This document shows, piece after piece, positions 39,870 to 57,842 of a stretch of DNA of 57,842 nt. The DNA comes from a virus, in the IMG/VR virus record IMGVR_UViG_3300029787_000045, positions 1 to 57,842 of that record; one strand, written 5' to 3'. Every line of letters begins with the position of its first letter. The first letter of the stretch is position 1. The position numbers and the translations under genes were made by a program. Under the pieces are notes generated by a model. That model did not search any database. It had not been told where the DNA came from and saw nothing but the letters and a program-made list of their open reading frames with translations.

Positions 39870-40211
39870 ATGACAACAAATATTAAAGTTGGAATTGCTG
39901 TAGGCGATGCAGTTCTTAAACATGTAGAAGATGATACGACGATAGGGAGTAATGGAACGAGTGATAGTCCACAACCATCCACCACTCGTGTCTTAGCTAT
40001 ACATGCTCTAGCAACTGCGGCTGGTTCTTATTCAATTAAAGGTCAGCGACAGATTACCAATAAAACAGCAGAAGGTACTGCAATTAAATTTCAAGTAGCT
40101 GCTAATGAAGCAACTGATATTTATATGGGAGAATTAGGTGTTCCTGTATATGGAGTCGTTAGTGTTTCTGGTCCTACTGATGGATGCGTCTTAACAGCAT
40201 TTATAGGCTGA
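39870..40211 (+). CDS. Structural-region protein, unknown
   Basis: 113 residues, beta-rich and Thr/Ala-rich (TRVLAIHALATAAGSYSIKG), with a strong AGGGAG ribosome site. Sits between the capsid hairpin and the adaptor protein. Possibly a head stabiliser or immunoglobulin-like decoration; not recognised. Confidence 0.5.
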   Translation: MTTNIKVGIAVGDAVLKHVEDDTTIGSNGTSDSPQPSTTRVLAIHALATAAGSYSIKGQRQITNKTAEGTAIKFQVAANEATDIYMGELGVPVYGVVSVSGPTDGCVLTAFIG

Positions 40212-40213
40212 TA

Positions 40214-40888
40214 ATGTCTACATATTCTGACTTAAAGACAGCCTTAATCAATACCTCTGAAAATGATGGTACTGAATTTATTAATGAGATACCTAATTTT
40301 ATTAGTAGAGCAGAACTACGTTTAACAAAAGATATTGATGACTCAGGGTTAGATGAGTACTCAGCTATTACTCTTACGGCTGGTAATGCAGTTGTAAGTT
40401 TAAATGATAGAGTACGTATAGTTCGTAATGTAAACTTTACGACAAGTGCAGGTAGTAAAACAAATCTACTGCAACGTACTATTGAATATTGTAATGACTA
40501 CTGGCCTGTAAGTGCTTCTACAGGAGAGCCACGTTATTACTCACGTAAGAATAACACTTCTATTTTTATTGTACCAACTCCTGTATCCACACTAACAGGA
40601 GAAATACAAACAGCTTCCCAACCATTAGCCTTGGCTTCTGCTACAGGCACAAGTGTTACTACAGCAAATTATTTTACTAATTACTGTTTTGATGCTTTGT
40701 TCTATGCTGCAATGATGGAAGTTACTATGTACATGAAGGATTGGGCTACAGTTCCTGCATGGCAAACTCAATATGAAGCAGCAGTTATTACACTAAGAAA
40801 TCAAGCTAGAAGGGCACGTCAGGATGATATGGCAGTTGCTGCCTCACCTGCGGGTGGTCCTGATACAATTACACCGGGGAGTTCGTAA
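40214..40888 (+). CDS. Head-tail adaptor protein (P22 gp4-like)
   Basis: 224 residues from ATG 40214; the frame extends upstream into the previous gene but that part is spurious. Pattern YSDLKTALINTSENDGTEFI (1-25), RAELRLTKDID, then SLND..RIVRNV and GEPRYYSRKNN, and a helical end (WQTQYEAAVITLRNQARRAR), matches adaptor proteins that bind under the portal. A second, related adaptor-like protein is at 45489. Confidence 0.7.
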   Translation: MSTYSDLKTALINTSENDGTEFINEIPNFISRAELRLTKDIDDSGLDEYSAITLTAGNAVVSLNDRVRIVRNVNFTTSAGSKTNLLQRTIEYCNDYWPVSASTGEPRYYSRKNNTSIFIVPTPVSTLTGEIQTASQPLALASATGTSVTTANYFTNYCFDALFYAAMMEVTMYMKDWATVPAWQTQYEAAVITLRNQARRARQDDMAVAASPAGGPDTITPGSS

Positions 40889-41046
40889 TGGCATTTTCAT
40901 ACAAAAAACAAATACACAAAAGTAAAGGCAAAGCAGGAAAGAAAGCTGGCGGTAAAGTAGAATATAAAAAGCATGGTGGTAAAGTAATTAAAACAAACAT
41001 GACTGGAGACGATGTAGTTAGTGGTTGTTATGATGAACAGGTCTAG
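40888..41046 (+). CDS. Small basic Gly/Lys-rich protein (KHGGKV motif)
   Basis: 52 residues, TAATG start-stop overlap with the adaptor. Contains KKHGGKVIKTNM and many Lys. First of a run of short, very basic proteins (to 44736) between the adaptor and the next structural gene. No family recognised. Confidence 0.5.
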   Translation: MAFSYKKQIHKSKGKAGKKAGGKVEYKKHGGKVIKTNMTGDDVVSGCYDEQV

Positions 41047-41242
41047 TGCTAGACAACAAATTATGAAGCCACCTAAGAAACCAAAGTTAGGTAGTGGGGT
41101 TAGATTTAAAAATCTTACTACTAAACTAAAAAAAAGTGGAGTAAAAAATCCTAAAGCTCTTGCTGCATCCATAGGTCGTAAGAAATATGGTAAAAAGAAA
41201 ATGTCAGTAATGGCAGCTAAAGGTAAAAAAAGGAGAACTTAA
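41030..41242 (+). CDS. Small basic protein
   Basis: 70 residues from ATG 41030 (GTG 41021 rejected). Ends GRKKYGKKKMSVMAAKGKKRRT; core SGVKNPKALAASIGRKKYGK recalls small basic phage proteins annotated only as hypothetical. It overlaps the gene before it. Confidence 0.55.
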   Translation: MMNRSSARQQIMKPPKKPKLGSGVRFKNLTTKLKKSGVKNPKALAASIGRKKYGKKKMSVMAAKGKKRRT

Positions 41243-41404
41243 ATGGAAAAGAAAACAGAAGTAAAAACAGTAGCTGTTGTTGAGCAGCCTGTTAAGAAGC
41301 CAGAACCTAATCCTAATAATACTATTGGAATAGCTCTTTTTATTGCTGTAGGTATTGTTCTTCTTTCAATGGTAATTTATAAAAAAGTAAAGGGAATAAA
41401 ATAA
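41243..41404 (+). CDS. Small single-TM protein
   Basis: 53 residues: polar/basic first 28, then one membrane helix (GIALFIAVGIVLLSMVIY) and a basic tail. It is the only membrane protein in the basic cluster. The AAGGAGAACTTAA ribosome site is strong. Below common size cutoffs. Confidence 0.55.
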   Translation: MEKKTEVKTVAVVEQPVKKPEPNPNNTIGIALFIAVGIVLLSMVIYKKVKGIK

Positions 41405-41580
41405 TGTCGGGACCACATACATTAATTGATCGCAGTATTCCTCTTGATAAGATAGTAGGGAAACCTACTGGACAAGGATTTGGGGCTGCACGTAAAGGAC
41501 CATCTGTTGTAGGTAAAGCAAAAGATGCTGTTGTTGATGAAGACTATCAACAGGATAAATCTTTTAAAATAGAGGATTAA
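41404..41580 (+). CDS. Small protein, unknown
   Basis: 58 residues (MSGPHTLIDRSIPLDKIVGK...), coupled to the TM protein by an ATAATG overlap; basic, Gly-rich middle (GQGFGAARKG) and acidic tail. No motif recognised. Confidence 0.5.
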   Translation: MSGPHTLIDRSIPLDKIVGKPTGQGFGAARKGPSVVGKAKDAVVDEDYQQDKSFKIED

Positions 41581-41584
41581 TAAC

Positions 41585-42322
41585 ATGGCTGAACGTAAGC
41601 TTACTAAATCAGAATTAAGATTGAAAAAAAGTGATCCAAAAAGATTTGCTGAACTTCAAAAAATAAGGGCACGAAGAGTTAAAGGTTACAAAAGACCTCT
41701 TGGACCTAAAGTTGTTAAACCTATAAAGAAAAAGGAAAAGAAACTAAATCAGCGTATTGGCCGTGGTACTATGAAACCGGGATTAGATAACGCTTACAAA
41801 AGTGCTATTGAAAGAGAAAATGAACGTAAATCTAAATCTAAACCTGTTATTGCTGTAAAGCCAAATAAGCCAAAGCGTGGCTCTATGAAACCGGGATTAG
41901 ATAACGCTTACAAAAGTGCTATTGAAAGAGAAAATAAAATTAGACCACTGCCGAAAGACATTCCTAATAAGTCTGTCGTAGTTAAGAAGCCTAAGAAGCC
42001 TAAGAAGCCTGATCTTACTTATAGAGAGGATGAAGGTTCACCTATTGGAACAGCACCTGAAAAATCTACTAAGACATATACTCCTCGTAAAAAATATGAA
42101 GGTGGTATTGATTTTTATGAAACACCTTTTGGCAGAATAAAAGCAGACAGTTCTGATGACGCTTTTAGTTTCGATGTCGAAGAAAAAGATGGTGGGTATC
42201 TTAAAAGAGATATGATGATAAAGCGTAAGAAAGGTGGTAGTATTAAGAAGAAGATAAAGAAGGGTAAAGTAAAGAAACGTGCCTCTCTTCGTGGTCAAGG
42301 TAAAGCACTCAGAGGATTCTAA
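41585..42322 (+). CDS. Very basic repeat protein with LRGxGKALRGF C-terminus
   Basis: 245 residues, pI clearly high. Two near-identical blocks MKPGLDNAYKSAIEREN (DNA repeats 41769-41821 and 41883-41935) lie in the first half; MMIKRKKGGSIKKK and a C-terminus ASLRGQGKALRGF follow. The next gene ends AALRGYGKALRGF. No family recognised; a nucleic-acid-binding or head-packed role is a guess. Confidence 0.6.
   Translation: MAERKLTKSELRLKKSDPKRFAELQKIRARRVKGYKRPLGPKVVKPIKKKEKKLNQRIGRGTMKPGLDNAYKSAIERENERKSKSKPVIAVKPNKPKRGSMKPGLDNAYKSAIERENKIRPLPKDIPNKSVVVKKPKKPKKPDLTYREDEGSPIGTAPEKSTKTYTPRKKYEGGIDFYETPFGRIKADSSDDAFSFDVEEKDGGYLKRDMMIKRKKGGSIKKKIKKGKVKKRASLRGQGKALRGF
41769..41821 (+). repeat. 53-bp direct repeat, copy A
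   Basis: Identical to 41883-41935, period 114 bp, within the basic repeat protein. Confidence 0.9.
41883..41935 (+). repeat. 53-bp direct repeat, copy B
   Basis: Identical to 41769-41821; the exact duplication of 53 bases suggests a recent event or gene conversion. Confidence 0.9.
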
Positions 42323-42323
42323 A

Positions 42324-43724
42324 ATGACTATATTAACATCTCAATTGACAAAATTAACAGTAAGGGCATTACGAGAACTACAAGATAGCATAACTAAAAA
42401 AGGAAAAGCAGCGCCTAAAAACAGCCCAAAGCGACAAGAATTAAGAGATGATTATTTAAAAGTTAAAAGAGCAATAGACAAAAAAGAACAGTATGGTAAA
42501 AATGTATCTGCTGCTGATAAAGTATTAGATAATAAAAAAGCAACACCTGATGTTGATCAGGATGATATTCCTGTAATTGAAAGAGCGTCAAGAGCAGAAA
42601 AAGGAAGACCTTCAAATATTTATCCAGTAGTTGAAGGAGGAGAGCCATTAACCAGAGAAGGACAAGCTGCTGCTTCTAAGTTTAAAAGTTGGCTTACATC
42701 ACAAATTCCACCTAAAATGAACGAACTTGGTAGCATATATTATCGAGGTAAAGAAGCAGTTGAAGTATCTGAAAAATTAATAAAAGAAATAAAAAATACT
42801 ACAGACCCAAAAAAACTTTCAGCTTTAAACAAAAGATTAGATCGAAGTAATAAAAAAGCGCAGAAGTTAAGAGTTAAGTACAAAGAAGTTAAAGATCGTG
42901 GAACTCGTATGGGTGGCGGTCAAAAAGATGAAAGTATGCAAGCAAGAATAAGTAAAGAACGGAGAGTTAAGTTAGAAGATATAGAGCCTCTTGCTACAGG
43001 AAGAAAAGGAAGAGAGCAGCTTGGAAAGAGACAATTAATTAAAGATGCAGATAGAAAAAAGTTAGCTACCCAAGTAAAAAAATTTATGAACAGGAGTGGG
43101 AAAGTAACTAAAGTACCTACAGGCAAACAGGTTACTGCTGGTGCGCCAGATGATTCTGAGGGAATTAAAGATTTATTAAATAATATACAAGCTGCTTTAG
43201 CTACCGCTTCTAAAGTACCAGCTAATCCAGATCGTAAAAGTGTACGAGCGCAAAAGAAATTTAATGAAGCAACTGTTGGTCAAATTACAAGTAATCTACG
43301 ATCTGGAGGTTTGAGTGCTTTACAGAAAATAATTAGAGAAGAAAAAAAGAAATCACCAAGAACATGGAAGAATGCAGTTGCAAATTTAAAAAATGCTTCA
43401 GTAGCAGTACAGAAACAAGCTGCAAGATTAGGCATAATAAATAAATCGGCTATAAAAACTCCTCCTAAAAAAACTAAACCTTACAAACCTAAAAAACCTG
43501 AAGTACGTAAGGGAAAGCCAAGAGTAGTTAATGGTAAAACAGTAGAAACAACTCAATATCGTAAAAAAGGTGGTAAAGTTTTAAAAGCTAAACCTAAACG
43601 TAAAGTAACTACAGTTAAAGCTGTTAAACCTAAACGTAAAGTAACTACAGTTAAACGTAAGACAACTGCACCACGCAAACGTGCAGCGCTTCGTGGTTAT
43701 GGTAAAGCACTCAGAGGGTTCTAG
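42324..43724 (+). CDS. Large basic protein with LRGxGKALRGF C-terminus
   Basis: 466 residues from ATG 42324 (an upstream GTG frame is spurious). Highly Lys/Arg-rich; KPKRKVTTVKAVKPKRKVTT repeats near the end and AALRGYGKALRGF C-terminus, shared with the preceding protein. Could bind DNA or capsid interior; function unknown. Confidence 0.6.
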   Translation: MTILTSQLTKLTVRALRELQDSITKKGKAAPKNSPKRQELRDDYLKVKRAIDKKEQYGKNVSAADKVLDNKKATPDVDQDDIPVIERASRAEKGRPSNIYPVVEGGEPLTREGQAAASKFKSWLTSQIPPKMNELGSIYYRGKEAVEVSEKLIKEIKNTTDPKKLSALNKRLDRSNKKAQKLRVKYKEVKDRGTRMGGGQKDESMQARISKERRVKLEDIEPLATGRKGREQLGKRQLIKDADRKKLATQVKKFMNRSGKVTKVPTGKQVTAGAPDDSEGIKDLLNNIQAALATASKVPANPDRKSVRAQKKFNEATVGQITSNLRSGGLSALQKIIREEKKKSPRTWKNAVANLKNASVAVQKQAARLGIINKSAIKTPPKKTKPYKPKKPEVRKGKPRVVNGKTVETTQYRKKGGKVLKAKPKRKVTTVKAVKPKRKVTTVKRKTTAPRKRAALRGYGKALRGF

Positions 43725-43921
43725 TGGCTAGTAAAAAAATAATAAAGCTATACCAAGAGTCTGTTGATCAAGGTATAGATAATTATAATTTACTAGATAA
43801 TGATATTAAGAAACCTATTAAAGAAGACTATAGTGATTGGGATAACTATTGGGCTTCTCTTATCAGTTACATGAAAGAAAAGTATAGATATACATATGGC
43901 AGTAAAGCGCAGAAAAAGTAA
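43724..43921 (+). CDS. Small protein, unknown
   Basis: 65 residues from GTG 43724 (overlapping the TAG of the previous gene). Begins ASKKIIKLYQESVDQG; contains many Asp/Tyr. No ATG in frame at the start. Overlaps the next gene by 26 nt. Confidence 0.5.
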   Translation: MASKKIIKLYQESVDQGIDNYNLLDNDIKKPIKEDYSDWDNYWASLISYMKEKYRYTYGSKAQKK

Positions 43922-44192
43922 TATGAAGGGGATGACTATTGGTAGAGGCATGAAACGTCCTACCAAGGCTGGTGCTGGTATGACTAAAAAAGGTGTTGCC
44001 AAGTATCGTAGGCAAAACCCCGGCTCTAAACTACAGACTGCTGTAACTGAAAAGAAACCTACTGGTAAACGTGCAGCAAGGCGTAAGTCTTACTGTGCTA
44101 GATCAGCAGGACAAATGAAGAAGTTCCCAAAGGCTGCTAAGAATCCTAATAGTCGTTTAAGACAAGCTCGTAAAAGATGGAGATGTAAATGA
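43896..44192 (+). CDS. DUF6321-like basic protein
   Basis: 98 residues. KKGVAKYRRQNPGSKLQTAV and RKSYCARSAGQMKKFPKAAK, ending RLRQARKRWRCK, match DUF6321, small basic proteins found in many marine phages, including T4-like cyanophages. Function unknown; a DNA- or capsid-binding role is guessed from charge. ATGA overlap with the next gene. Confidence 0.75.
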   Translation: MAVKRRKSNMKGMTIGRGMKRPTKAGAGMTKKGVAKYRRQNPGSKLQTAVTEKKPTGKRAARRKSYCARSAGQMKKFPKAAKNPNSRLRQARKRWRCK

Positions 44193-44341
44193 GAAAAGCT
44201 GTAGATGCTCCTAAAGGTTTTCATTGGATGAAATCTGGTAAAGGATTTAAACTAATGAAAAATCCTAGAGGTGGTTATGTACCGCATAAGGGTGCTTCTA
44301 AAAAAGCTAGTTTTGAAATTCAAAAAATACATAAAAAATGA
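44189..44341 (+). CDS. Small basic protein (WMKSGKGFKLMKNP)
   Basis: 50 residues with FHWMKSGKGFKLMKNPRGGY. Coupled at both ends by ATGA overlaps with the DUF6321 and DUF5872 genes, which supports it despite its size. Function unknown. Confidence 0.55.
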   Translation: MRKAVDAPKGFHWMKSGKGFKLMKNPRGGYVPHKGASKKASFEIQKIHKK

Positions 44342-44736
44342 TTAAGCGTAAGAAAGGCGGCACAGCTACTAAGCGTGATCCTAAAAAGTGGGCTGCTGCT
44401 AAGTCAAGAGCAAAAACTAAGATGGGTGGTAAGCACTCAGCAAGAGCAATGCAGTTAGCTGTTAAGTATTATAAGGATGCAGGTGGTACATACTCAGGTA
44501 AAAAGAAGCCTACTAATAAATTATCTAAGTGGACAAAACAAAAATGGACAACAAAATCAGGCAAGCCAAGCAGCAAGACAGGGGAACGGTATCTTCCCAA
44601 GAAAGCAATCAAAGCACTGTCATCAAAGGAGTATGCTGCGACCACGAAAGCAAAGAGGAAAGGGACTGCTGCCGGAAAACAGTTCGTAAAGCAGCCAAAA
44701 AGAATAGCTAAGAAAACAAGAAAGTATAGAACATAA
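44338..44736 (+). CDS. DUF5872-like basic protein
   Basis: 132 residues. KWTKQKWTTKSGKPSSKTGE, then RYLPKKAIKALSSKEYAATT and PKRIAKKTRKYR fit DUF5872. It starts MIKRKKGG, the same string as near the end of the 41585 protein. Basic; function unknown. Its stop overlaps the start of the next structural gene. Confidence 0.75.
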   Translation: MIKRKKGGTATKRDPKKWAAAKSRAKTKMGGKHSARAMQLAVKYYKDAGGTYSGKKKPTNKLSKWTKQKWTTKSGKPSSKTGERYLPKKAIKALSSKEYAATTKAKRKGTAAGKQFVKQPKRIAKKTRKYRT

Positions 44737-45488
44737 TGGTTACAATTCCCTCCATAACTGCTAGAGGCATTCACGAGCCTTTCTACCTTCAGGTATCTAG
44801 GGGTCAAATTCTAGAACATGAAACAGTTTTTAAGTTTGGATTTAATCCAGACGTAAACGGTACAGAAGAAACTATCTGGGATGTAGGCGGTATCTATGCT
44901 TACCCCGGCTCTGCCGTTGCTATGACTGTAACAACAGATGCAGGTACACCAGCAAACGATAATGGTGTAAAGGTAATAGTCTTTGGTTTGGATGAAAATT
45001 ACAACGAAGTTAATCAGGAAGTAACTCTTGCTGGTGCTGGTACAGCTACAACTACACAGACATTTCTTCGTGTCTTTCGTGCTTATGTCAGCGGATCACA
45101 AGCACCTACTGGCAACCTGAACATCACCAACGGTGGGACGACATATGCTCGGATTACTGTTGGTGAGAATCAGACGCTGATGGCTATGTGGACTGTTCCT
45201 GCTGGGTACACAGGATTTTTAGATCATGTCAACATTGCTACTGGCACAACAAACGCCAATCAGTACGTTACTGCTCAAATTGTCCAACGTACACAGGGCG
45301 GTGTATTTCGAGTTATGATGAAACAGACCCTTGGTTCAGGCGGTATTGCAGATTTTCTTCTACGTTATCCGATTTTAGTACCTGAAAAAACAGACTTAGA
45401 AGTACGGGCAGTATCTTCTGGCGCTAATAACTTAATTTCTTCAAACTTTTCTATAGTGTATATTAAAAATCCTTATGAGGTATGTTAG
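44736..45488 (+). CDS. Putative structural protein, beta-rich
   Basis: 250 residues, beta-sandwich-like (AMTVTTDAGTPANDNGVKVI, VGENQTLMAMWTVPAGYTGF). In a tail-assembly region just before an adaptor; probably a virion protein of the neck or tail. ATG overlaps the stop of DUF5872 gene. Confidence 0.55.
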   Translation: MVTIPSITARGIHEPFYLQVSRGQILEHETVFKFGFNPDVNGTEETIWDVGGIYAYPGSAVAMTVTTDAGTPANDNGVKVIVFGLDENYNEVNQEVTLAGAGTATTTQTFLRVFRAYVSGSQAPTGNLNITNGGTTYARITVGENQTLMAMWTVPAGYTGFLDHVNIATGTTNANQYVTAQIVQRTQGGVFRVMMKQTLGSGGIADFLLRYPILVPEKTDLEVRAVSSGANNLISSNFSIVYIKNPYEVC

Positions 45489-46163
45489 ATGGCAGTATCA
45501 GGTACATATGATTTTAATCTTGATATAGATCAAGTAATACAAGAAGCAACTGAGATGATTGGGGGAGAACAAACTCTTGGTCACGAACCTGCTTCTGCTC
45601 GTCGTTCAATAAACCTTATGCTTAAAGACTGGCAGAATAGGGGAGTTCTCCTGTGGACTACAGAGACTACTGCTGTTACTGTAACTTCTAGTGTAGGTTC
45701 TTATAGCCTCAGTAGTTCTACTATAGATGCTCTTGAGGTTGTTCTTAACAGGGATAGTACTGACATTCAGTTAGAACGTATTTCTCCTGAAGAATATTTA
45801 ATAATTCCTAACAAGACCCAGACAGGTAGACCTTCTCAGTATTCTATACGTAGGGGGCGAGATAACCCTGTTCTTTCAGTATGGCCTATTCCTGAGAACT
45901 CTACTGATGTAATGAAGATTGAACGTATCAGTGAATTGCAGGATGTAGATAAATCTGCTGGACAGAATGCAGACATGCCTACACGTTTTCTACCACCTCT
46001 TACTTGTGGTCTTGCTTACTATATGTCAATGAAACGTCCCGGTGTAGAAGCTGCTAGAATACAAATGTTAAAGACTAATTATGAAGAACTTCTTGCTAGA
46101 GCCTTTCAAGAAGATCGTGAACGATCTACTATGAGGGTTGTACCTAAATTGAGGTATGTCTAA
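45489..46163 (+). CDS. Adaptor / neck protein (P22 gp4-like)
   Basis: 224 residues. Begins AVSGTYDFNLDIDQVIQEAT, then ASARRSINLMLKDWQNRGVL, LWTTETTAVTV, then GRPSQYSIRRGRDNPVLSVWP and an Asp-Met-Pro-Thr-R stretch (NADMPTRFLPPL) with a helical end. The layout is that of podovirus tail adaptors with GxxPxxYxxxR. Two adaptors (with 40214) suggest separate tiers of the neck. Confidence 0.7.
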   Translation: MAVSGTYDFNLDIDQVIQEATEMIGGEQTLGHEPASARRSINLMLKDWQNRGVLLWTTETTAVTVTSSVGSYSLSSSTIDALEVVLNRDSTDIQLERISPEEYLIIPNKTQTGRPSQYSIRRGRDNPVLSVWPIPENSTDVMKIERISELQDVDKSAGQNADMPTRFLPPLTCGLAYYMSMKRPGVEAARIQMLKTNYEELLARAFQEDRERSTMRVVPKLRYV

Positions 46164-46438
46164 TGGCAAGTAATAAAAATGCACTAGCCATGTGTGATAC
46201 ATGTGGCTTTGTCTACCCTCATCGGGTAATGCGTTTTAATAGTTATGGTATGTTAGTATGTCCTACAGACTTTGAAGGACAGTATGATTTAAAGAACCAT
46301 CCACAAAATAAAGTCCCTGATGTTAGAGACAATCCTGCTATACGTGATCCACGACCTGATAATGGTGGTAGGAATCTTACGTGGGAGCAAGCTACGACTA
46401 ATTGGGAAGACACAGACAAGTATTGGAACTTAATATGA
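46163..46438 (+). CDS. Small zinc-ribbon-like protein
   Basis: 91 residues; CDTCGFVYP (11-19) and CPTDFEG (33-39) form one C-x2-C / C pattern that may bind zinc. Typical small protein next to the adaptor in marine podoviruses. TAATG and ATGA overlaps with both neighbours. Confidence 0.6.
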   Translation: MASNKNALAMCDTCGFVYPHRVMRFNSYGMLVCPTDFEGQYDLKNHPQNKVPDVRDNPAIRDPRPDNGGRNLTWEQATTNWEDTDKYWNLI

Positions 46439-48741
46439 CAGACTTAACCGGAAAAACAATTGCTAATACTTATAAACAACTACTAAGAGTTGGTGTAAGT
46501 ACTAATACTGGTGTTAGTGCTGGCCTTACTACTATTGAAAGTGGTGATGGCACAGATAGTTCTTTTCAATTAGCAACTAACTCTGCTAAATTTACTGGTA
46601 CGCTTGCTGTAAATGGTGCTACTTCTATTGGTGATAGTTTGCATGTAGATGAAAAAGTATGTGCTTCTGCATTCTATGGTGATGGTTCTAATATTACTGG
46701 TGTTACTGCAACTATTGCTGGAAACATATCAGTCAGTAATGCCACAGTAGGTGGTAATTTATATGTAGGTGGTACGACTACTATAGTAGGTGCAACACAT
46801 CTACAGGCTGCTGTATCGGTTGGTGGCGCAGCACAGTTTGGTTCTACAGTTACAGTAGCAGGTGCAGCACAATTACAGAGTACAGTAACAGCCGTAGGAG
46901 CAGCTACCTTTAAATCTACAGTTACAGTAGAGAATGTAGCAGCCCTGAAAAACAATGTAACAGTAGGCGGTACATTTAATGTAGCAGGTGCTTCTGACTT
47001 TACATCCAAGGCAACTTTTAATAATGACGTATCAGTAAGCGGTAGACTTGATGTAGCAACATCAGCATGTATTGGTGGTATTCTTGATGTTGAAGGTGTA
47101 GCAAACTTTGCAACTAATGTAAGTGTAAGTGGTAATGTAAATGTTGTTGGAAATGTAACTGCTGCCTTCTTCTATGGTGATGGTCGTAATCTTACAAACG
47201 TAGAAGCAGAGTTAGGTACTGCTGCTAATATTTCTGTTGCTGGCTTTGTAAATGTAGGAACTAGTCTTTCTGTTAGCGGTACAGCCAATGTAATTGGTGC
47301 TGCTAGTTTTCAATCTACTGTTACAGCAGTTGGTGCAGCTACATTCAAAGATGATGTATCAGTAAGTGGTAATACTAGACTACTAGGTACAGTCACAGTT
47401 GGTGGGGCAGTATCTCTTGCTTCTACATTAAGTGTTGGTGGTGCCTCTAATTTTGCATCTACTGTCACAGTTGGTGGAGCAGTAAGCCTAGCATCTTCTC
47501 TTAGTGTAGGAGGAGTTGCTAACTTTGCTAATACAGTAACTATAGCTGGAGCAGTCTCTCTTGCTTCTACACTAAGTGTTGGTGGTGCCTCTAATTTTGC
47601 ATCTACTGTCACAGTAGTAGGCGCAGGTACTTTTAAAGACGACGTAAGTGTAAGTGGTAATACTAGACTGCTAGGCACAGTTACAGTTGGTGGGGCAGTT
47701 TCTTTAGCTTCTACTTTAAGTGTGGGTGGAGTTGCTAACTTTGCAAATACTGTGACAGTTGCAGGTGCTGTAAGTCTAGCCTCTACTCTCAGTGTTGGAG
47801 GAGCATCTAATTTTGCATCTACTGTCACAGTAGTAGGAGCAGGAACATTTAAAAGCAATGTATCAGTAAGTGGTAATGTAGACATAGCAGGTAATGTATC
47901 TGTAGGTGGCACACTCTTTGCTGCTGGTGGTATTACATATGATGGTGATGTATCAGTCTCTGGTAACTTAGCAGTAGGTGGTAATGTATCTGTAGGTGGC
48001 ACATTAAGTGTTACAGGCGCAGTAAGTCTAGCATCTTCTTTAAGTGTTGGTGGTGCTACTAATCTTTTAGGTACAGTGACTGCTACAGGTAATGCAGGGT
48101 TCTTAGGAACTGTTAGGGTAAGTGGAGCTACAAGTCTTGAGAATGCTTTAAATGTTACAGGAGCAGCTTTATTCTCTTCTACTGTAACTGTTGTAGGTGC
48201 AACACACTTACAAAGCACTGTCTCAGTAGCTGGAAATACACAGCTAAGTGGCACATTAACCGTAGGTGTTAATGACACCGGACATGACGTAAAATTCTTC
48301 GGAGCAACCGATGGTTCCTATATGCTATGGGATGAAAGCACTGATGATTTGATTTTGGGTGGAGATTCAAAGATGGGCATTGGTACGGCTAGCCCAGCAA
48401 AGAAATTTACCTTAGATGGTTCTTCTTTAGCCACTATTGGTACACTAACAGATGGCGCAACTATTACGCCTAACTTTGATACTAACCAGAACTTCTCTGT
48501 TACTCTTGGAGGCAACCGTACACTTGCTAATCCAAGCAACATTGATGCGGGACAGACAGGCAGTATCTTTGTTGTGCAAGATGGCACAGGATCAAGAACA
48601 TTGTCCTTTGGTTCTTATTGGAAATTTGCTGATGGTACTGCTCCTACACTATCTACCGCAGCAGGATCAGTTGATAGAATTGATTATATCGTGTACACTG
48701 CTACAGCTATTCATGCTGTTGCAACTTTTAACATAAGTTAA
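46435..48741 (+). CDS. Tail fibre with beta-solenoid repeats
   Basis: 768 residues from ATG 46435, which overlaps the stop before it. Residues ~75-610 are repeated 16-18-residue units of the type TVTVGGAVSLASTLSVGGAS, N-terminal IANTYKQLLRVGV attaches to the virion, and FYGDGSNITGV/FYGDGRNLTNV blocks recur. The C-terminus (ILGGDSKMGIGTASPAKKF, then ATITPNFDTNQNFSVTL) is a different fold. A trimeric fibre for host binding. Confidence 0.85.
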   Translation: MTDLTGKTIANTYKQLLRVGVSTNTGVSAGLTTIESGDGTDSSFQLATNSAKFTGTLAVNGATSIGDSLHVDEKVCASAFYGDGSNITGVTATIAGNISVSNATVGGNLYVGGTTTIVGATHLQAAVSVGGAAQFGSTVTVAGAAQLQSTVTAVGAATFKSTVTVENVAALKNNVTVGGTFNVAGASDFTSKATFNNDVSVSGRLDVATSACIGGILDVEGVANFATNVSVSGNVNVVGNVTAAFFYGDGRNLTNVEAELGTAANISVAGFVNVGTSLSVSGTANVIGAASFQSTVTAVGAATFKDDVSVSGNTRLLGTVTVGGAVSLASTLSVGGASNFASTVTVGGAVSLASSLSVGGVANFANTVTIAGAVSLASTLSVGGASNFASTVTVVGAGTFKDDVSVSGNTRLLGTVTVGGAVSLASTLSVGGVANFANTVTVAGAVSLASTLSVGGASNFASTVTVVGAGTFKSNVSVSGNVDIAGNVSVGGTLFAAGGITYDGDVSVSGNLAVGGNVSVGGTLSVTGAVSLASSLSVGGATNLLGTVTATGNAGFLGTVRVSGATSLENALNVTGAALFSSTVTVVGATHLQSTVSVAGNTQLSGTLTVGVNDTGHDVKFFGATDGSYMLWDESTDDLILGGDSKMGIGTASPAKKFTLDGSSLATIGTLTDGATITPNFDTNQNFSVTLGGNRTLANPSNIDAGQTGSIFVVQDGTGSRTLSFGSYWKFADGTAPTLSTAAGSVDRIDYIVYTATAIHAVATFNIS
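47390..47900 (+). repeat. Repeats in the tail-fibre gene
   Basis: Blocks such as TCTAATTTTGCATCTACTGT recur exactly at about 47450, 47590 and 47810, and GTAAGTGGTAATACTAGACT occurs at 47360 and 47650. Stretches of tens of bases are identical, giving substrates for recombination. Confidence 0.85.
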
Positions 48742-57685: not shown

Positions 57686-57842
57686 ATGACAACTAATTTA
57701 AATACTAATGATTTATCTAACGCAAGCGTAGATGATTTAATAGAATTAGATAAAGCTCTTAGCCCAAAATCTTCTACTCAAGAAGTAACACCTATAAATC
57801 TTAGGGATACTAATGATTTATCTAACGCAAGCGTAGATGATT
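57686..57842 (+). CDS. Giant ejection (internal virion) protein, N-terminal part
   Basis: Start of a gene that leaves the window at the right end and continues in frame at position 2 on the left. ATG 57686 follows an AGGAAAGATTTCTA ribosome-binding stretch and lies 15 nt after the stop of the preceding ejection protein. The 52 visible codons hold one and a half copies of a 35-residue repeat (core NDLSNASVDDLI, LDKALSPKSSTQEV). Depending on how the ends join, the whole protein is about 1802 residues (two repeats) or 1837 (three). The role is inferred from the left-end part. Confidence 0.85.
   Translation, partial: MTTNLNTNDLSNASVDDLIELDKALSPKSSTQEVTPINLRDTNDLSNASVDD
57704..57842 (+). repeat. 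Tandem 105-bp repeat / terminal overlap, right end
   Basis: About 1.3 units of the 35-codon repeat. The last 98 bases equal bases 4-101 of the window. This copy encodes ELDKA where the left copies encode ALDKA, so the overlap is not a perfect end-to-end match: the copies may be distinct members of a longer array. Confidence 0.95.

Follow-up and report, generated by a model that had tools for sequence, protein, structure and literature searches.

Many otherwise unrelated basic proteins, encoded in the head gene cluster of a large group of aquatic phages, were found to end in one short C-terminal tag, which is probably an address label for loading proteins into the virus particle. The tag was recognised on two proteins, E and F, of the window, that is, the whole stretch of 57,842 nucleotides analysed here (IMG/VR record IMGVR_UViG_3300029787_000045). 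Protein E ends in RASLRGQGKALRGF and protein F in RAALRGYGKALRGF; the common part is RGxGxAxRG, with a KKGG motif just before it. This tag is the main finding of the analysis and was overlooked in the original prediction, which had noticed the KKGG motifs; their recurrence was upheld, with 4 observed against 0.48 in shuffles (4 of 2000 shuffles reached 4). Duplication of one gene into E and F was ruled out, as the two bodies have no similarity. An ssrA-like degradation tag and an AT-hook, both considered as candidates for the tag, were dropped as unsupported.

The window contained TerL, a divergent portal, GroES, a capsid protein (PF25209) and two SU10-type adaptors, genes that place it with the HTVC023P-type pelagiphages and the CRP-901/902 roseophages, of which the phage is, judged by sequence, a relative. 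The order of the head module in those phages is that of the window (portal, GroES, g315, g168, g204, MCP, adaptors), but their capsid protein is only about 51-54% identical to that of the window, and with an MCP about 51% identical the window represents a related but separate branch from the HTVC023P-type phages. HTVC023P, like the window phage, has a DUF6321 gene, and its gp32 and gp51 carry single-unit tags, while the cultured HTVC027P has no recognisable tag. The E and F families were not found in cultured phages; tblastn with E, F or the tag gave no useful match there, which is weak evidence of absence since the tag queries are short and partly of low complexity. At its two ends (1-101 and 57742-57842) the window has an overlap of about 101 bases, 99% identical, which marks the tailed-phage genome as complete or nearly so, and as probably circularly complete, though classed as linear. 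On the 3' side of adaptor 2, a very repetitive protein of 779 residues (46402-48741) with GNVSVGGTLSVGGAVSLASTLSVGG-type repeats varies strongly among relatives and is probably a tail fibre. The features of the island and its borders, with net charges, are as follows.

40214..40888, + strand: adaptor 1 (SU10_adaptor; PF24175, 1.8e-18), left border of the island
40888..41046, + strand: A, 52 aa, +7, minimal A-slot protein, from comparison with relatives
41033..41242, + strand: B, 69 aa, +24, conserved basic protein; comparison with relatives puts its start at 41033
41243..41404, + strand: C, 53 aa, +5, one hydrophobic span, from sequence; in close relatives only
41404..41580, + strand: D, 58 aa, neutral (0), conserved, left anchor of the E/F slot
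41585..42322, + strand: E, 245 aa, +46, variable body and C-terminal tag
42290..42319, + strand: C-terminal tag of E, RGQGKALRGF
42324..43724, + strand: F, 466 aa, +75, variable body and C-terminal tag
43692..43721, + strand: C-terminal tag of F, RGYGKALRGF
43724..43921, + strand: G, 65 aa, neutral (+2), conserved, right anchor of the E/F slot
43896..44192, + strand: H, 98 aa, +33, DUF6321 (PF19846, 49 bits)
44189..44341, + strand: I, 50 aa, +12, conserved among close relatives
44338..44736, + strand: J, 132 aa, +40, phrog_14910, predicted compact helical domain
44736..45488, + strand: acidic protein of 250 aa, phrog_8198, present in some relatives
45489..46163, + strand: adaptor 2 (SU10_adaptor; PF24175, 7.2e-11), right border of the island

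An alternative upstream ATG is possible for adaptor 1 at 40184, and a GTG at 41021 is likewise open as the start of B. The description of the island as ten coupled, mostly basic genes between two adaptor genes was correct. The ten + strand ORFs (A-J) span 40888-44736 with starts and stops that overlap or lie at most about 5 bases apart, so that they are coupled to adaptor 1, which ends at 40888, and to the gene at 44736-45488, and both flanking genes passed the PF24175 cut-off of 27 (68.1 and 43.3 bits). Seven of the ten proteins (A, B, E, F, H, I and J) were strongly basic, the less charged ones being D, G and the one-membrane-span protein C, and the total net charge of A-J was +244. Charge per residue was +0.13 to +0.35 in the basic island genes; almost no ORF in the rest of the genome exceeded +0.11.

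The tag stands at the C-terminus, is conserved as a peptide and is nearly restricted to phages with this head module. The motif R-G-x-G-x-A-x-[RK] was counted in the window and in 80 loci not chosen by the tag but fetched only for encoding J. These contain 1,463 non-overlapping ORFs (called mechanically in the metagenomic loci, which are partly redundant), and the motif fell within the final 28 residues 37 times and elsewhere 0 times, with about 0.2 in shuffles. The pattern used in the larger scans had been derived from the data beforehand. A DNA pattern for two heptads retrieved at least 47 IMG/VR contigs with a C-terminal tag. Among the matches listed, 38 of 44 C-terminal-tag contigs with GC <0.55 encoded homologues of the window's head genes, as against 0 of 51 controls (non-C-terminal match, GC >=0.55); head genes were counted here and in the stricter scan as the window portal, capsid, g315, g168, g204 or adaptors. 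The stricter IMG/VR pattern (PRGVGxAxRG[YF]GxA), counted in newly fetched contigs, lay within 20 residues of the C-terminus in all 135 of 135 places among the matches listed (118 distinct proteins). Window head genes were present in 91 of the 102 contigs listed and some window homologue in 100, an association that denotes the same lineage and the same neighbourhood, not the same complex, since tagged genes lie beside head genes and short contigs therefore show both. A pattern near-identical to the stricter form, without the leading proline and with a basic position after, gave 7 matches when 257 Gb of genomes of bacteria and archaea were scanned, and only two of these were credible (L394 and L396). 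The contig L396, binned in a Crocinitomicaceae MAG, contained a tagged protein and a relative of the capsid protein in the capsid tree, and looks like this phage lineage. Tags within one contig had the same residues in different synonymous codons, which argues for selection on the peptide.

The tagged bodies were basic in general (median +0.16 per residue), and hydrophobic segments were seen in only 10 of 98 tagged proteins, so membrane insertion is not general among them. Almost all had no Pfam or PHROG match, which makes the tag a handle on hundreds of dark genes. A search of the literature found no relevant paper on the tag strings and nothing on the tag idea.

Tagged genes were on the strand of the head genes in 253 of 253 cases, inside the head/neck cluster, and lay mainly between adaptor 1 and adaptor 2, between TerL and the portal, or between the portal and GroES. 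Near the window the framework is adaptor 1, the A slot, B, (C), D, the E/F slot, G, H, I, J and adaptor 2. Where both anchors were present, the E/F slot was occupied in 28 of 29 loci, as a rule by a single basic protein or a pair of them ending in this tag or a weakened form; it was empty in L243, and in L158 the slot protein had an A-slot-like end instead of the tag. Proteins of the A slot carry another C-terminal signature, typically KGYKKGGPITYRMTGGQVVxxxYD, and relatives of A have bodies of up to about 500 aa in front of a GGxVV...YD signature. Bodies were swapped between close relatives while the tag was kept: L009, L213 and L221 match the window at 97% identity in the capsid protein and at 96-99% in adaptor 2, and in all three the E/F bodies were wholly or partly replaced.

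One and the same body was also seen with and without a tag, or with different tags. The same 84-residue DUF6321 protein occurred with a 23-residue DGIA-tag extension (L511, L471) and without it (L161, L440), DUF5872 proteins were tagged in L109 and L205 and untagged in L353, a DUF6496 body had the RG-type tag in L152 and the DGIA tag in L503 and L506, and one TerL-portal body had the RG tag at its end in L136 but RWESKWG in both L115 and L389. As some homologues have no tag, it is not always needed. The DGIA tag (DGIAxRGKTRG), sometimes appended to DUF6321, belongs to a sister clade that has this head module too. Among the matches listed, this dialect was C-terminal in 139 of 152 places (135 proteins, 77 body clusters), and 93 of 96 contigs had the same head module. 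On a quick capsid-protein tree, the RG-only label took 3 changes against 33 in shuffles and the DGIA contigs fell almost all in one clade, an agreement that common descent by itself may explain. A third C-terminal ending, [KR]WExKWG (L115, L389, L206, L328), was seen in 32 contigs, all of which also had RG-tagged proteins. DUF6321 homologues (relatives of H) of another clade (L102, L105, L111, L193, L198, L399) had the RGxG motif at the N-terminus instead, so the position of the tag is not absolute.

We consider it an even call that the island is a cargo-loading locus within the head/neck cluster, in which short tags bring variable proteins into the virion. The proteins in its slots (A and E/F, and in relatives TerL-portal and portal-GroES) would be interchangeable and for the most part basic, with free replacement of the body and retention of a short terminal tag, here the C-terminal RGxGxAxRG. 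We infer that the tag would bind a head or neck component of this phage during assembly, that any body bearing it would thereby be incorporated in the virion, and that some tagged proteins would probably be delivered to the host with the DNA. No PDB entry is related in sequence to the MCP or to adaptor 2, so a site for binding the tag cannot be read from structure. If the model is true, sequence alone would predict which proteins enter the particle. More doubtfully, and in our estimate somewhat against the balance, the tag may be both sufficient and portable, with the bodies forming a large and as yet unused reservoir of proteins that are delivered into bacteria abundant in aquatic habitats.

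The closest parallel is with the internal proteins of T4 (IPI-III, Alt), which are ejected and counter host defence (PMC3012670, PMC7411985). Like the island proteins, they combine diverse small, often basic bodies, which differ between close relatives, with one short conserved terminal peptide. The T4 capsid targeting sequence is N-terminal, whereas the island tag is C-terminal, glycine-rich and unrelated in sequence, occurs in several dialects and is encoded within the head/neck cluster of an unrelated head lineage. The T4 peptide is also removed by the prohead protease, whereas no processing is known for the island tag, and a scan of head genes revealed no prohead protease. Should the loading role be true, the tag would be a C-terminal, multi-dialect counterpart of the T4 capsid targeting sequence.

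The original prediction had suggested that the cluster could encode head-packed DNA-condensing proteins or ejected effectors, and this was partly supported. Several lines point to an association with the head, since the island is co-translated inside head/neck genes, the terminal tags come almost exclusively from phages that have this head module, and DUF6321 sits in proteins reported from the virions of two cyanophages. These are S-SCSM1 ORF29, which has DUF6321 at its end and carries a virion-protein annotation in a genome whose paper reports virion mass spectrometry (PMC9602691), and S-CREM2 ORF137, likewise with DUF6321 at its end and found in virions by 4 peptides only (PMC10665884); both are untagged and of another phage group. 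Generic DNA condensation fitted less well than delivered cargo, because the bodies swap while the tag stays constant. Delivered cargo is also favoured by the LysM domains in tagged proteins of L167, which have no recognised catalytic domain, and by the nuclease and the acetyltransferase-like protein behind a leader in CRP-902. In the portal-GroES slot of the cultured CRP-902 (L401, 3098-8349), four proteins with unrelated bodies share the N-terminal leader MANP[VI]KG...LG; one is an annotated nuclease and one is GNAT-like by sequence reading. This leader is an N-terminal counterpart of the tag, unrelated in sequence, and its pattern matched only 5 IMG/VR contigs. The LysM proteins and the CRP-902 set suggest functional cargo more than DNA filler.

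Under a condensation reading, the proteins would condense or neutralise DNA in the head in a histone-like or core-like manner, and the glycine/arginine-rich tail would be a DNA-contacting peptide and not an address. The net charge of the cluster and the basic character of the tagged bodies agree with this, but a DNA-contacting tail needs neither an exact C-terminus nor invariant glycine/alanine spacing, the DGIA dialect is less basic, bodies are swapped wholesale, and LysM, nuclease and GNAT-like bodies are not condensers; we regard it as unlikely. The same low probability is given to tagged proteins that are late and act in the producing cell (assembly, lysis or host takeover) through a tag binding a non-virion partner. 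Virion detection so far concerns only the untagged DUF6321 proteins of another phage group, and the LysM of L167 resembles lysis proteins, the PHROG matches of that domain being endolysins. However, tagged genes always lie within head/neck genes, dialects track the head module, the LysM proteins show no catalytic domain, and DUF6321 does occur in virion proteins.

Anchoring outside the head or neck, for decoration or adhesion with the variable bodies exposed on the particle, is very improbable in our judgement: the island is flanked by two adaptor genes, exposed proteins typically have variable bodies and LysM could bind cell walls, but very basic, low-complexity bodies are unusual among decoration proteins, and the nuclease and GNAT-like bodies of CRP-902 would be senseless outside. 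Least probable of all, and hardly credible, is that the common ends are repeated DNA promoting recombination between cassettes, with the peptide as a by-product. Common ends adjoining swapped bodies would presumably aid recombination, but within a contig the codons differ between tags where the residues do not, and the E and F bodies have no similarity.

Besides its variable cargo, the proposed loading island has conserved basic companions in H (DUF6321), J, B and I, which are probably virion proteins as well. The DUF6321-like assignment of H was confirmed by a match to PF19846 (49 bits against a cut-off of 28.5) with the two conserved DUF6321 Cys kept; H and J are separate small proteins here, whereas in cyanophages DUF6321 makes up the C-terminal part of a protein of 500 residues. 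The DUF5872-like assignment of J was only weakly right: PF19197 gave no match at E<=1, but a distant profile-profile similarity (75%, E 2.6e-5, 69 columns) suggests a distant DUF5872 relative at best, and by profile score J is phrog_14910. Protein E had a weak match to phrog_5859, and the Pfam and PHROG searches gave no helpful matches for the other island proteins. A literature search found DUF6321 named in no paper and DUF5872 in a single one, on an algal virus. Sequence-profile searches of H and J for PDB relatives found none, and their predicted folds (pLDDT 71 and 85, respectively) had no significant match in the PDB. The predicted fold of J is compact and mostly helical. In relatives, the genome position of J varies, and it is found in HMO-2011-type and other phages.
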